Assembly (NCBI GenBank): GCA_030562195.1
Contig: CM060199.1
Coordinates: 21,534,338-21,598,337 of the forward strand
From: Nipponacmea schrenckii
Lineage: Eukaryota > Mollusca > Gastropoda > Lottiidae
DNA: 64,000 nucleotides
Direction: 5' to 3'
The translations under genes were made by a program, and so were the position numbers. Shown here one piece after another: positions 40,331-45,429 of the stretch. Position 1 is the stretch's first letter, and each line of letters opens with the position of its first letter. The notes under the pieces are model-generated. The model did not search any database, was not told the DNA's origin, and saw nothing but the letters and a program-made list of their open reading frames with translations.

Positions 40331-40658
40331 TTAAGCACGTTCGCCTCGGATTCTTCGGGCCAGTTGGATGTCCTTGGGCATAATGGTCACTCTCTTGGCG
40401 TGGATGGCACACAAGTTGGTATCTTCGAAAAGACCGACCAAGTAGGCCTCACTGGCTTCTTGACGAGCCATGACAGCTGAACTCTGGAATCGAAGATCAG
40501 TCTTGAAGTCTTGGGCGATTTCTCTCACCAAACGTTGGAAGGGTAGTTTTCGGATCAACAATTCGGTGCTCTTCTGGTAAAGACGGATTTCTCTCAGAGC
40601 CACGGTTCCGGGTCGGTATCTGTGAGGTTTCTTCACACCACCGGTAGCCGGGGCGCTC
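40331..40658 (-). pseudogene. H3: histone H3, C-terminal part (residue 29 to end)
   Basis: Reads [20 protein letters not shown] through [40 protein letters not shown] to [12 protein letters not shown] and TAA at 40331. The histone fold is complete and near-identical to canonical H3. Upstream it runs through GAGCGC (40653-40658) into the poly(A) of LINE C (plus-strand T run 40659-40677). The missing N-terminus is at 45341-45429. 322 nt (40331-40652) plus 89 nt equals 411, exactly one H3 gene. Confidence 0.97.
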
Positions 40659-40677
40659 TTTTTTTTTTTTTTTTTTT

Positions 40678-41563
40678 ACACTCAGAATTGGTAGTCTCAA
40701 CCCAAAAAGCGCGTGAGAACTACCGCTCACTATGGTACTAACTAGTTAACAATGGGGTATGTTTAATGAGGCCTATCCATTTACTTTACAATATGACTTT
40801 TATGTTAGTATTTGAACTAAAAATATTATTTTAAATTTTATAAGAAGTTTTAGTGAGCAATCATCATTGTGTATATCTCTCTTTTAATATCTTTTTAATT
40901 ATATGGCCTTAATACAGGTTGTATAAATATAAATAGAAATATAGTATATCATGTATGAAATAAAAGATGCAGTTCCTTCGCCCGTGTTAAGGGCATAGGC
41001 GGTCACCCTGGGGTGACTAAGCATACCCAAAGCACGAGTGAAGGAAGTGCAATAGGGAGTGAAAGGGCGGGACCGGCTACGGTGGCAGAAAATCATATAC
41101 ACCATAGCCGGTACCGCTCAATGAATTATGAATGATATAGGTATATATATAGTAGTGTAAAAATAATCTGGGTGTATAATTTTTGTACTATCACAGAACA
41201 TTGTAAATAATATCGCCCACATCATAACAAGAATCATGTATAAGTGGGTATATGAATAAGTTTTGGTAGAAATTCTATAAAATAATGATGGAATTAAAAA
41301 TATATGGATTGATGAATGTAATTGTACATAATTAAATGCTACTGTGTGGCAAGGGTGTGTGTGATATGCCGGTCTCACCAAGTTCGGGGTCAGAGACGTC
41401 TCTGCAGCATCAAACTACTTTGACATGAAGCAGGGACGCATCTGAGTTTATTTGGATAAGGCCGACATATCAGAAGGTTTGAGTGGCCATGCAAAGGTAT
41501 TCCGAGAAGGAAGCTATAGGTTGACTGCTATCGAGACACTGTACTAATATGGGTATATGGGAG
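40678..41563 (-). repeat. LINE C 3' UTR
   Basis: Non-coding. Contains a GC-richer patch near 40975-41090 and TATATATAG runs. Its last bases before the poly(A) read TTCTGAGTGT, similar to LINE B. Confidence 0.7.
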
Positions 41564-43456
41564 TCAGAGCTGCAGTAGTCTATGTATAATTGCATCTATC
41601 ATTGCTTCCATTGGCCTAGGAGCAGTCCTGTTGGTCCAAATAATGTAGAAGTAATGATAGATGTAAGGATACAGGCTGTCATGAAGATCATGAAGGTAGA
41701 TGGTAAATTCAGTGATCTTCATGTCGTGGCCGGTGGTGTTTGACACGTAGCGACAGAAGCTATCCCGCAATTTCTTCAGGCTTTTACACTGGACAAACAG
41801 ATGTTTGAGAGATTCGGCTTCAACTCCACAGAATTTGCATTTTAGATCAAAATCTGTGGAGCTGCGAACCCTCAAGAATGATTTTGTAGGCAGAGCCGAA
41901 TGAACAACGAGAAACAGAAAGTCTTTTTCCTGAAGATTTAATTTAGAATTTTGAATGTTGCCAAATATTGACTTGAAGTTGATAAATCTGTATTCTCGTT
42001 GTACTTTAGGTATAATTTTGAGGTCTTGAATTAGTGCCAAATATATGTCTTTTGAAGTAGTTTTTGCAGTAATTTTGATGCCTAGTTTCCGAAAGTTAAT
42101 AAATAGAGGCTTATAGGATGGATGTATGTCCAGTGTCATTGCAGGATACCGTCTGTCGCGATTATATTCTCTGAGGGTTGGTCCCCCCAATAGAATAGCA
42201 GCGCCACCCACGGATAGCAAGTACCGCTGGAGGTCAAACGCTTCTAGCTTGACTGTCACATCGCAGACATTCTGCCCACCCGACTCGACTGGTAGTTTAA
42301 GGGTCTCCCTGGCGATGGCTTCGTGTTTGCCATCCCAGAGAAACCCGAAGATTGCAGAGTTTAAGTCTTTAATGAATTTTTTGTCTGGTTTTATAATTCT
42401 GCCCACGTACCAAACTTGGGACAGAATAAAAGTGTTCAATATGTGTATTTTTTCTCTGAATGTTAATGAGCGGTTTTTCCATTTGATTAAGTTTTTACGA
42501 ATTTTGTTCAGAATAGGGTTAAAATTGTCTGAGATGTTATCGGGGCCGAAAGTTATGCCAAGAAGTTTGATTTTGGGTTTTAGGTATTCTGCCATCGAGT
42601 TTGGTACGTGGGAAGCCACCCCCCGAAAAGTAGTTATATCTGTTTTTGAATTATTAATTTTGGAACCTGAAGCTAGTTGGAATTTTTGAAGGTCGAGTTC
42701 GAGATGGGCAAATGAATCGGCATCTGTGACTAGGATAGTCAAGTCATCAGCATGCTGAATAGTCTTGACCTCCAGCGGATAGTTTGGAATTCTGACACCC
42801 AGTATACCAATATTATTGTTGATATTAAGGGCCAGAGGGTGTATTGCGAGCGAGAAGAGCGCCATGGATAACGGGCATCCTTGTTTGACGCCACGCTCAG
42901 GGGTAAAGTATTCCGTGAACGCCCCTCTCACTTCGCAGCACACCCTCAGGTCCATGTACATGATCTCGATCCATTTTAAGATGTTAGGAGCAGTCAGCAG
43001 ACTGGTCAGGTACCTCCGGTTAAGTCTATCGAAGGCCTTCTCCTGATCGTAGGCGAGTATGGCTAAGCTGGAGTTGGTTTGATTAGAGTATTTTATTATA
43101 CTGTCAATCGAGAGCAGGTTATTGATAATGGATTTATCTTTCCCTGCTCCCGATTGAGTGTCTAATAGAATACTGTTGAGAATTTTGTTTAATCTGTTGG
43201 TGATCACCTTGGCAATAATTTTATAGTCTACCGTCAACAGAGAGATAGGCCTATAATTTTTTAAGTCTGTTTTCGCTCCTTTGTTTTTATAATGGATAGT
43301 CAAAATTGATGTTTTCATAGTATCGGTGAGACGATGTCTGAAATATACATTAATAATTTCGGAAAGGTCGTCTTTCATTGTATCCCAAAAAGTTAAATAA
43401 AATTCTTTTGGGATCCCATCGATCCCGGGTGATTTGTTGTTCTGAAAATGGTTCAA
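41564..43456 (-). CDS. LINE C ORF2, reverse transcriptase part
   Basis: 630 codons open from SPGIDGIPKEFYLTFWD to the C-terminus. Reverse transcriptase motifs: NYRPISLLTVDYKIIAKVIT, AYDQEKAFDRLNRRYL (motif A), RGVKQGCPLSMALFSLAIHP and QHADDLTILV (motif C). The thumb and C-terminal region include LSQVWYVGRIIKPD and a CKFCGVEAESLKHLFVQC knuckle. Catalytic residues are present. Upstream coding sequence (43460-44806) is broken, so full ORF2 cannot be made. Closely similar in layout to LINE A ORF2 but clearly another family (about half the residues differ by eye). Confidence 0.9.
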   Translation of the reverse strand: MNHFQNNKSPGIDGIPKEFYLTFWDTMKDDLSEIINVYFRHRLTDTMKTSILTIHYKNKGAKTDLKNYRPISLLTVDYKIIAKVITNRLNKILNSILLDTQSGAGKDKSIINNLLSIDSIIKYSNQTNSSLAILAYDQEKAFDRLNRRYLTSLLTAPNILKWIEIMYMDLRVCCEVRGAFTEYFTPERGVKQGCPLSMALFSLAIHPLALNINNNIGILGVRIPNYPLEVKTIQHADDLTILVTDADSFAHLELDLQKFQLASGSKINNSKTDITTFRGVASHVPNSMAEYLKPKIKLLGITFGPDNISDNFNPILNKIRKNLIKWKNRSLTFREKIHILNTFILSQVWYVGRIIKPDKKFIKDLNSAIFGFLWDGKHEAIARETLKLPVESGGQNVCDVTVKLEAFDLQRYLLSVGGAAILLGGPTLREYNRDRRYPAMTLDIHPSYKPLFINFRKLGIKITAKTTSKDIYLALIQDLKIIPKVQREYRFINFKSIFGNIQNSKLNLQEKDFLFLVVHSALPTKSFLRVRSSTDFDLKCKFCGVEAESLKHLFVQCKSLKKLRDSFCRYVSNTTGHDMKITEFTIYLHDLHDSLYPYIYHYFYIIWTNRTAPRPMEAMIDAIIHRLLQL

Positions 43457-44806: not shown

Positions 44807-44987
44807 GATTGAAAAATGAGAAAAGTGTAAATTTATTGGGTAGTTTTTTGTTTACGAGCTGTCTTTAATATAGGATAGGAGTGTTCTAGTTCGGTTTGTT
44901 TTCTGTTAGTTTTGTTTTCGTAGAGGTTTACTGTGGTAGATCCGCTGATATCGTTTAGGCTTCCGGCTTTACACTTTTTACTGTCTT

Positions 44988-45340
44988 CTAGAAGACTGCT
45001 TCATTCTCTGTCCCGTTTTCTAGAGTCTTTAGAGGACGAGCGGGATGACTTCGGGGTCTCGGTGACCGCAGCATTTTGGGAGGCGATTTTGGGTCTAGCC
45101 CCCCCCCAGTGGCAACATGGGGGGTAGATTCAGATTGAGATCGTTCTTCGATCTCCTCCCGGCTGCGATCATAGGCTGAGATCTCGACGTCGGCCCACTC
45201 GTCGATGAGAGCAGAAGGGTTAATGTTGGATTCTATAGGTTGTATGGCGGAGATATTGGGGGTTGAGTTTTTTATCATCCGGGCCAATTCTTTGAGACTT
45301 TTTTTTTGGATGGTTTGATGGTGTCGTTTTGACTTAAGTA
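44988..45340 (-). pseudogene. LINE C ORF1, C-terminal fragment
   Basis: Reads KSLKELARMIKNSTPNISAI and DVEISAYDRSREEIEERSQS, matching the C-terminal half of LINE A ORF1. It is 5'-truncated at 45340. The open frame runs back into histone H3 DNA in a non-histone frame, which is accidental. Confidence 0.75.
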
Positions 45341-45429
45341 GCGCTCTTTCGGGCAGCCTTGGTGGCAAGTTGTTTTCTCGGGGCCTTGCCTCCAGTGGAT
45401 TTACGGGCAGTCTGCTTCGTACGGACCAT
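45341..45429 (-). pseudogene. H3: histone H3, N-terminal part (residues 1-28), copy 1
   Basis: The minus strand begins ATG GTC CGT ACG and encodes [20 protein letters not shown], then [10 protein letters not shown]. This is the H3 tail with K4, K9, K14, S10, K27 and S28. Residue 1 after Met is V instead of A. At 45341 it is cut by LINE C. The rest of the gene is at 40331-40652. Confidence 0.97.

Follow-up and report, generated by a model that had tools for sequence, protein, structure and literature searches.

Keno, Mutsu and Dewa are long interspersed nuclear elements (LINEs) of the Tx1 clade, and the R1 and R2 elements of ribosomal DNA (rDNA) occupy a repeated host gene in sense orientation and rely on its transcript, from which R2 frees its RNA by means of a ribozyme. 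In the 64,000-nucleotide window of the genome of the limpet Nipponacmea schrenckii analyzed here (contig CM060199.1, G000:C8:21534338-21598337 of a 399-Mb assembly), a LINE that we call LINE C interrupts a histone H3 gene, and related LINEs occur at the starts of H2B and H4 genes (C-labels below denote contigs and L-labels regions cut out of the assembly). We consider it quite probable, from the sequence comparisons presented here, that a diverse L1/Tx1-like clade of LINEs, whose tree contained no named Tx1 reference, uses replication-dependent histone genes as a transcription platform. If this is true, histone genes would be a new home for site-targeting LINEs and the strategy would extend to protein-coding genes transcribed by RNA polymerase II (Pol II), retrotransposition would be tied to histone transcription, and transcription starts and successive hops would be preserved in the copies as a natural record.

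The targets given for such LINEs in two papers are ribosomal RNA (rRNA), small nuclear RNA (snRNA), transfer RNA (tRNA) and spliced-leader genes, telomeric repeats, microsatellites and transposons, with Keno placed in U2 snRNA genes, Mutsu in 5S rRNA genes and Dewa in a tRNA spacer (PMC4640811, PMC3706591). The limpet LINEs resemble these three in their apurinic-like endonuclease and in having multicopy targets (PMC4640811, PMC3706591), but Keno, Mutsu and Dewa use RNA genes or repeats whereas the limpet LINEs are found in Pol II histone genes, at several sites and with many copies elsewhere. Multicopy genes are also the targets of the Dada elements which, unlike the limpet LINEs, are DNA transposons and go to U1/U6 snRNA and tRNA genes (PMC3706591). 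A search of titles and abstract openings, with most subscription papers outside its scope, returned no description of LINEs in histone genes. With R1 and R2 the limpet LINEs share the sense position within a repeated host gene and an apparent reliance on its transcript. Unlike R1 and R2, they have a looser target and their new copies keep the host leader, so the dispersed copies give no sign of leader removal by a self-cleaving ribozyme. Human LINE-1, through its second open reading frame (ORF2), provides the best solved relative by sequence and is similar in its AAA-tail type of insertion and short target duplication, but the limpet LINEs differ from it in an apparently conserved 3' stem-loop and in their histone preference; human L1 is not known to target histone genes.

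A LINE within a histone H3 gene

The 5' part of the interrupted gene, from the ATG to the second base of the Ala29 codon, occupies 45341..45429 on the minus strand (89 nt), and the 3' part, through the stop codon, 40331..40652 on the same strand (322 nt). These coordinates, given in an initial annotation of the window, are exact: the pieces add up to 411 nt and their joined translation is a 136-residue H3 followed by a stop. Between them lies LINE C (40659..45340, minus strand), in the same orientation as H3, truncated at its 5' end within ORF1 and ending in a poly(A) tail at 40659-40677. Pfam identified its reverse transcriptase (RT) and zf-RVT domains, and tblastn a part of the endonuclease, in agreement with the truncated LINE described there. 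The GAGCGC seen at both edges belongs to a target-site duplication of 6-9 bp, which reads AAAGAGCGC (5' copy at 45341..45349 and 3' copy at 40653..40661, minus strand, the first three A of the latter possibly being tail) or GAGCGC if the As are assigned to the tail. This duplication, the poly(A) tail and the complete joined product bear out the view that the gene was whole when it was hit. The insertion had been placed between codons 28 and 29; the locus stands, and the exact point falls within the Ala29 codon (codon 30 if Met is counted). A histone 3' untranslated region (UTR) stem-loop belonging to the interrupted gene is present downstream (40258..40303, minus strand, Rfam RF00032).

Two other statements of the initial annotation have to be revised. 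The H3 pieces had been called otherwise canonical, but they carry three substitutions, A1V in the 5' part and R53L and L92R in the 3' part, whereas intact H3 genes elsewhere in the genome are 100% canonical. The insertion had also been called unusual, but LINE C is one histone-start insertion, 5'-truncated and decayed, within a recurrent sense pattern at the starts of H2B, H3 and H4 and, to judge by leaders, H2A. A search for other H3 junctions at codon 28/29 had been suggested: among the 10 rows of H3 5' ends genome-wide, the only one sharing the site is the window's own duplicate, a second copy of the H3 1-89/LINE 5' junction (at 49688, within 49510..49776, minus strand) in a segmental duplicate of about 97% identity that is not independent. 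Strict specificity for this codon was rejected, as the other insertions are at different histone sites.

LINE insertions in other histone genes

Our list of junctions between related LINEs and an H2B, H3 or H4 gene has 13 entries, all of them in sense orientation and between -28 and +89 of the ATG. In H2B they are found at -12/+10 and +18 in C310, at about +10 for LINE A of the window, at -5 in C8 and C9 (perhaps one event), at +24 in C465, at +32 in C14, at +19/+21 in C9, where both sides are present, and from +21 for LINE B of the window and in C32. The H3 junction is that of LINE C (+81..89), and the H4 junctions are at -28..-21 in C9 and C8, at -3 in the window and at +36..40 in C8. In this list C310 was entered once despite its two visible insertions, L024 at H4 -21 was omitted, and L020 and L023, 98% alike over 200 nt, may be a single event, which would leave 12 instead of 13. 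A uniform model gives P of about 2e-17 for 13 events and about 4e-16 for 12, values that serve as a guide because the region was chosen post hoc. One hop between histone genes is seen directly in L022, where H4 contains a LINE headed by the H2B leader and H2B codons 1-8; 14 extra bases are present at its 5' edge, and its 3' side shows poly(A) followed by H4 from position 36.

Three of these cases are in the window besides LINE C. LINE A (11295..14829, plus strand), broken and 5'-truncated, has a poly(A) tail reaching the start of an H2B gene that lacks its 5' end (14828..15187, plus strand, from coding position about 10 to the stop). The 3'UTR and poly(A) of LINE B (38122..38365, plus strand) are likewise followed directly by an H2B fragment (38363..38437, plus strand, coding positions 21-95). 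At 15880..16667 (plus strand) an H4 promoter and leader extend to -3 of the ATG (through 15948) and are followed from 15949 by a LINE 5'UTR up to an N gap. Beside the H2B fragment there is a further damaged histone gene, an H1 with a broken frame (38686-39249).

Intact five-gene histone units of about 5.6 kb exist in this genome (L013); the H1 of an intact unit matches a partial protein of Lottia gigantea at 91% identity, with 57% of the query covered, as the third match by E-value, which by itself points to a lottiid-like limpet. H2B 3' halves were found in 11 rows genome-wide, one of them divergent (83%), and four of the 10 canonical ones are cut near their start by a LINE (C310, C32, C9 and C8). 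The use of histone genes proposed here, if true, would show how these four in one assembly may have been cut. The LINE B/H2B fragment of the window is one more cut H2B, outside the 11-row list.

Histone leaders in dispersed copies

The strongest evidence is provided by the 5' ends of copies located elsewhere. The H2B leader was located 27 times, compared with the 11 H2B 3' halves; 10 of these 27 rows were cut out and the other 17 were not. Nine of the 10, all outside intact units, begin at query positions 96-108, the inferred cap base being 104, and the tenth (L088) carries the promoter too. A link to a LINE was found for seven of the nine cap-site copies: L086, L087, L089 and L090 show leader-LINE joints common to histone-hosted copies, L081, L085 and L087 have an ORF2 row downstream on the same strand among the matches listed, and L081 and L082 share a 5' sequence. 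The joints that recur in dispersed and hosted copies are those of L090 and L015, of L086/L089 and L020/L023, and of L087 and L022. The copies themselves, together with TATA/initiator-like sequence, were the basis for inferring the cap sites.

The H4 leaders behave in the same way. A query made of promoter plus leader gave 18 independent rows; 15 of them start at 118-126, and no start falls in the promoter. These 18 are what remains of 38 rows after removal of 15 at histone loci or 3' parts, four duplicates on contig C3, and C11:2591055; among them, C14:18967360 adjoins the C14 histone cluster, and C10:27020799 and the row on C173 may be one. In at least nine of the 18 cases a match to ORF2 of the clade follows on the same strand after 3-5 kb (C12:11056101, C8:34872582, C3:37506334, C9:28154164, C8:21558400, C3:43850405, C11:2653409, C10:32716261 and C3:58928336), as judged by coordinates from 70 scored ORF2 rows of 3443 candidates, LINE E alone having been read as sequence. 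LINE E (19707..24108, minus strand) lies in the window at a non-histone site and consists of an H4 leader from the cap site (24063-24108), a 5'UTR, ORF1 (with a borderline CCHC match) and an ORF2 cut within the RT; it has no poly(A), its flanking duplication is about 32 bp, and the empty site is present at 34852-34883. Its joint is that of the H4-hosted copy at window position 15949, with the H4 leader followed by the same 5'UTR (99% over 200 nt). Tandem units of about 62-66 bp with A-runs were observed in this common 5'UTR, at 23438-23645 and 16364-16509.

H3 leaders were located at C3:31441979 and its duplicate, C5:16186623 and C10:2732778, and only the last has ORF2 downstream among the matches listed. 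On C10, C173 and C3 there are H2A leaders starting at query 80-81 that, by coordinates, adjoin an H4 leader; the stacked leaders would lie at C10:27020799-27020913, C173:6434-6548 and C3:58928282-58928365. As the dispersed copies begin at histone cap sites, the histone-hosted copies are probably the transcribed sources. Several matches on contig C3 are paired about 29.6 Mb apart with equal scores, as though half of it were duplicated in the assembly or as a haplotype.

Strength of the targeting

A genome-wide search with the 3'UTR of LINE C gave 35 rows, from which 30 loci were examined and 17 independent ends with a recognizable 3' terminus were scored. Seven loci were dropped where the terminus was not reached (L033, L034, L035, L037, L051, L057 and L058) and six as repeats (L045, L054, L055, L056 and the contig C3 duplicates L032 and L053). 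Four of the 17 insertions are in histone genes, or three of 16 without the window's own copy, and histone genes make up about 0.02% of the assembly. At 12 histone units the enrichment has P of 2e-12 (4/17) or 3e-9 (3/16), and even at 500 units P is 6e-6 and 2e-4, respectively.

Several results weigh against a histone platform and have to be set beside this enrichment. The remaining 13 of the 17 LINE C-like insertions are outside histone genes, as is LINE E. In other, more distant families none of eight scorable insertions was followed by a histone gene among 20 regions cut out (the eight with a recognizable terminus, L074 with an H4 piece, and 11 without), a set from which the H2B case of C310 had been excluded as already known; it was this result that fixed how firmly we state the proposal. 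Two of the cap-site H2B-leader copies (L083 and L084) have no LINE link that we could find, three of the 18 H4 leaders start at 133-137, and the LINE fragment that adjoins the H4 promoter in L024, at unit 1537, lacks insertion marks and matches no listed site. A single fixed target site for nearly every L1-like copy was not found, as several histone sites are used. Since LINE C-like insertions are enriched in histone genes yet mostly located elsewhere, histone targeting is a preference, strong for one family but leaky.

The AAA|G target context is frequent also outside histone genes. The idea that the non-histone sites are generally gene starts was not supported, because the ORFs following the insertions, examined by eye, are mixed and some look transposon-like. 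In L074 (C11:2591100; C11:2591055-2591110) H4 from about -14 to +91 is followed by poly(A) and then by non-histone DNA, which is suggestive of 3' read-through from an H4-hosted LINE copy. L040 and L074 are two insertions with a common 3' flank (97.5% over 689 nt), which may reflect a duplication or a repeated target.

Proposed mechanism and alternatives

In the mechanism that we propose, target-primed reverse transcription would place a LINE, in sense, at an AAA|G-like site within the 5'UTR of a histone gene or within its first approximately 90 coding bases. The histone promoter would then make a histone-leader-plus-LINE RNA beginning at the histone cap site, and reverse transcription of this chimeric RNA would give new copies, of which some would land in other histone genes and many outside them, the dispersed ones carrying the leader as far as the cap site. 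The junctions, their orientation and positions, the leader starts and the enrichment of one family are read from the assembled sequence itself. We infer that the hosted LINEs are transcribed, and in S phase. The bias seems to arise at insertion and not through later survival of expressed copies, because hosted copies that are truncated, like the one in H3, favor an insertion preference; the two are incompletely separated.

Survival would be the whole explanation if insertion were random and only sense copies behind a strong promoter were expressed, left offspring and were kept as sources. This accounts for the sense orientation, the leaders and the many dispersed copies, but we regard it as unlikely, for dead 5'-truncated hosted copies that are incapable as sources (LINE C of the window and L018) are in the same places, and the same sites are used by several families. 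A neutral graveyard, with LINEs landing everywhere and surviving in redundant, repeated histone genes, has a small probability: histone genes are indeed repeated, other transposable elements crowd the window too and most insertions of the family are elsewhere, yet it would yield neither sense-only insertions near the ATG, nor 4/17 in about 0.02% of the assembly, nor cap-site leaders.

The leaders could also have been acquired without co-transcription, by an RT that jumps from LINE RNA to histone mRNA and runs to the cap. Such template switching likewise predicts a start at the cap site, but its chances appear slight given that the joints recur in hosted copies, some of which retain the promoter upstream (window 15949, L015, L020/L023), and that their positions are those of the insertion sites instead of being scattered along the mRNA. 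It is highly improbable that a histone leader was captured once, fixed in the LINE 5'UTR and then inherited; several copies do have a common joint, but leaders of H2B, H4, H3 and H2A are involved, with differing joints and near-identical to the present genes, and the ORF2 of leader-bearing LINEs differ widely (39-94%, among the matches listed). The three 500-N gaps in the window, the paired rows on contig C3 and the many short contigs might point to assembly error. Misassembly at the H3/LINE C locus is nevertheless unlikely because of the target duplication, the poly(A) tail and the same kind of junction on other contigs, and with histone junctions on independent contigs the probability that misassembly or a single rearranged locus produced the pattern is negligible.

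A second LINE at H2A

Element G is an RNase-H LINE unrelated to the L1-like LINEs. At six inspected loci (L015, L017, L018, L023, L079 and L080) it adjoins the H2A 5'UTR at one base, after GTTAACAGGCGAGGTAAG(AT), with differing start points in G; in one of them, on contig C32, the G segment is inverted. Among 15 H2A promoter-side rows genome-wide, seven end at query 80-82, seven are whole and one ends at 112, and the six inspected rows ending at 80-82 show G there; four more rows of this query start at 66-69. The H2A TATA box is about 31 nt upstream of the joint. Positions 80-81 are also where the dispersed H2A leaders start, so the inferred H2A cap site seems to be the entry point of G.

G was also found in H3 at +111 (C465), near H2B, and in the window upstream of H3, where LINE G (45509..49075, minus strand; endonuclease, RT and RNase H) has its 3' end just upstream of the H3 leader and is duplicated at 49856-53906 (minus) and 54547-57208 (plus). 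The possibility that the window H3 leader ends at the H3 cap site was rejected, as it ends about 20 nt upstream, at unit 4052, beside G.

For both elements together, we lean slightly toward the view that core histone genes are home and promoter of a LINE clade moving among H2A, H2B, H3 and H4, whose leaders would stack with each hop (H2A leader, H4 leader, LINE) as a record of past hosts, while the unrelated G would enter at the H2A cap site, the H2A TATA starting transcription at its first base. Histone genes would then be the first protein-coding family used as R1/R2 use rDNA, with two lineages converging on the S-phase histone locus.

Classification and 3' end of the LINEs

The combination of an APE-type endonuclease and RT that defines the L1 group was found in these elements: LINE E has Exo_endo_phos and RVT_1, and LINE C has RVT_1 and zf-RVT. 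The zf-CCHC match in ORF1 of LINE E scores 20.8 bits, exactly the curated cut-off. LINEs A, C and E show about 65-71% nucleotide identity in matching ORF2 stretches and are therefore separate lineages; together with P0001 they form one supported group in the tree, in which row A fills 17% of the columns.

At the 3' end, a six-pair stem precedes CTGAGTG/GGAGTG and the tail (in LINE C at 40690..40724, minus strand, ahead of CTGAGTG and poly(A)). All pairs are kept in seven copies and pairs 3-6 are compensated, the arms having been picked by eye and the seven copies including two near-identical pairs; the ends of LINE A and L024 were not fitted. According to PMC4176376, stringent LINEs are recognized via 3' stems and mammalian L1 relies on poly(A). 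Rfam at gathering cut-offs gave three histone stem-loops and nothing else in the window. Distant relatives of these LINEs are encoded by contigs in bacterial assemblies (L001-L004), two of them from bivalve symbionts, which are probably animal DNA contamination; no histone gene match was found in these contigs, and nothing was found in the viral contigs searched.

Two further regions of the window are occupied by other mobile elements. Positions 4301-10576 contain two copies, about 98.7% identical, of an element with DDE_Tnp_4 and YqaJ ORFs, which we take to be Harbinger-like, and a run of ORFs at 58978-63576, presumably Polinton/Maverick-like, includes a Pox_A32-like ATPase.

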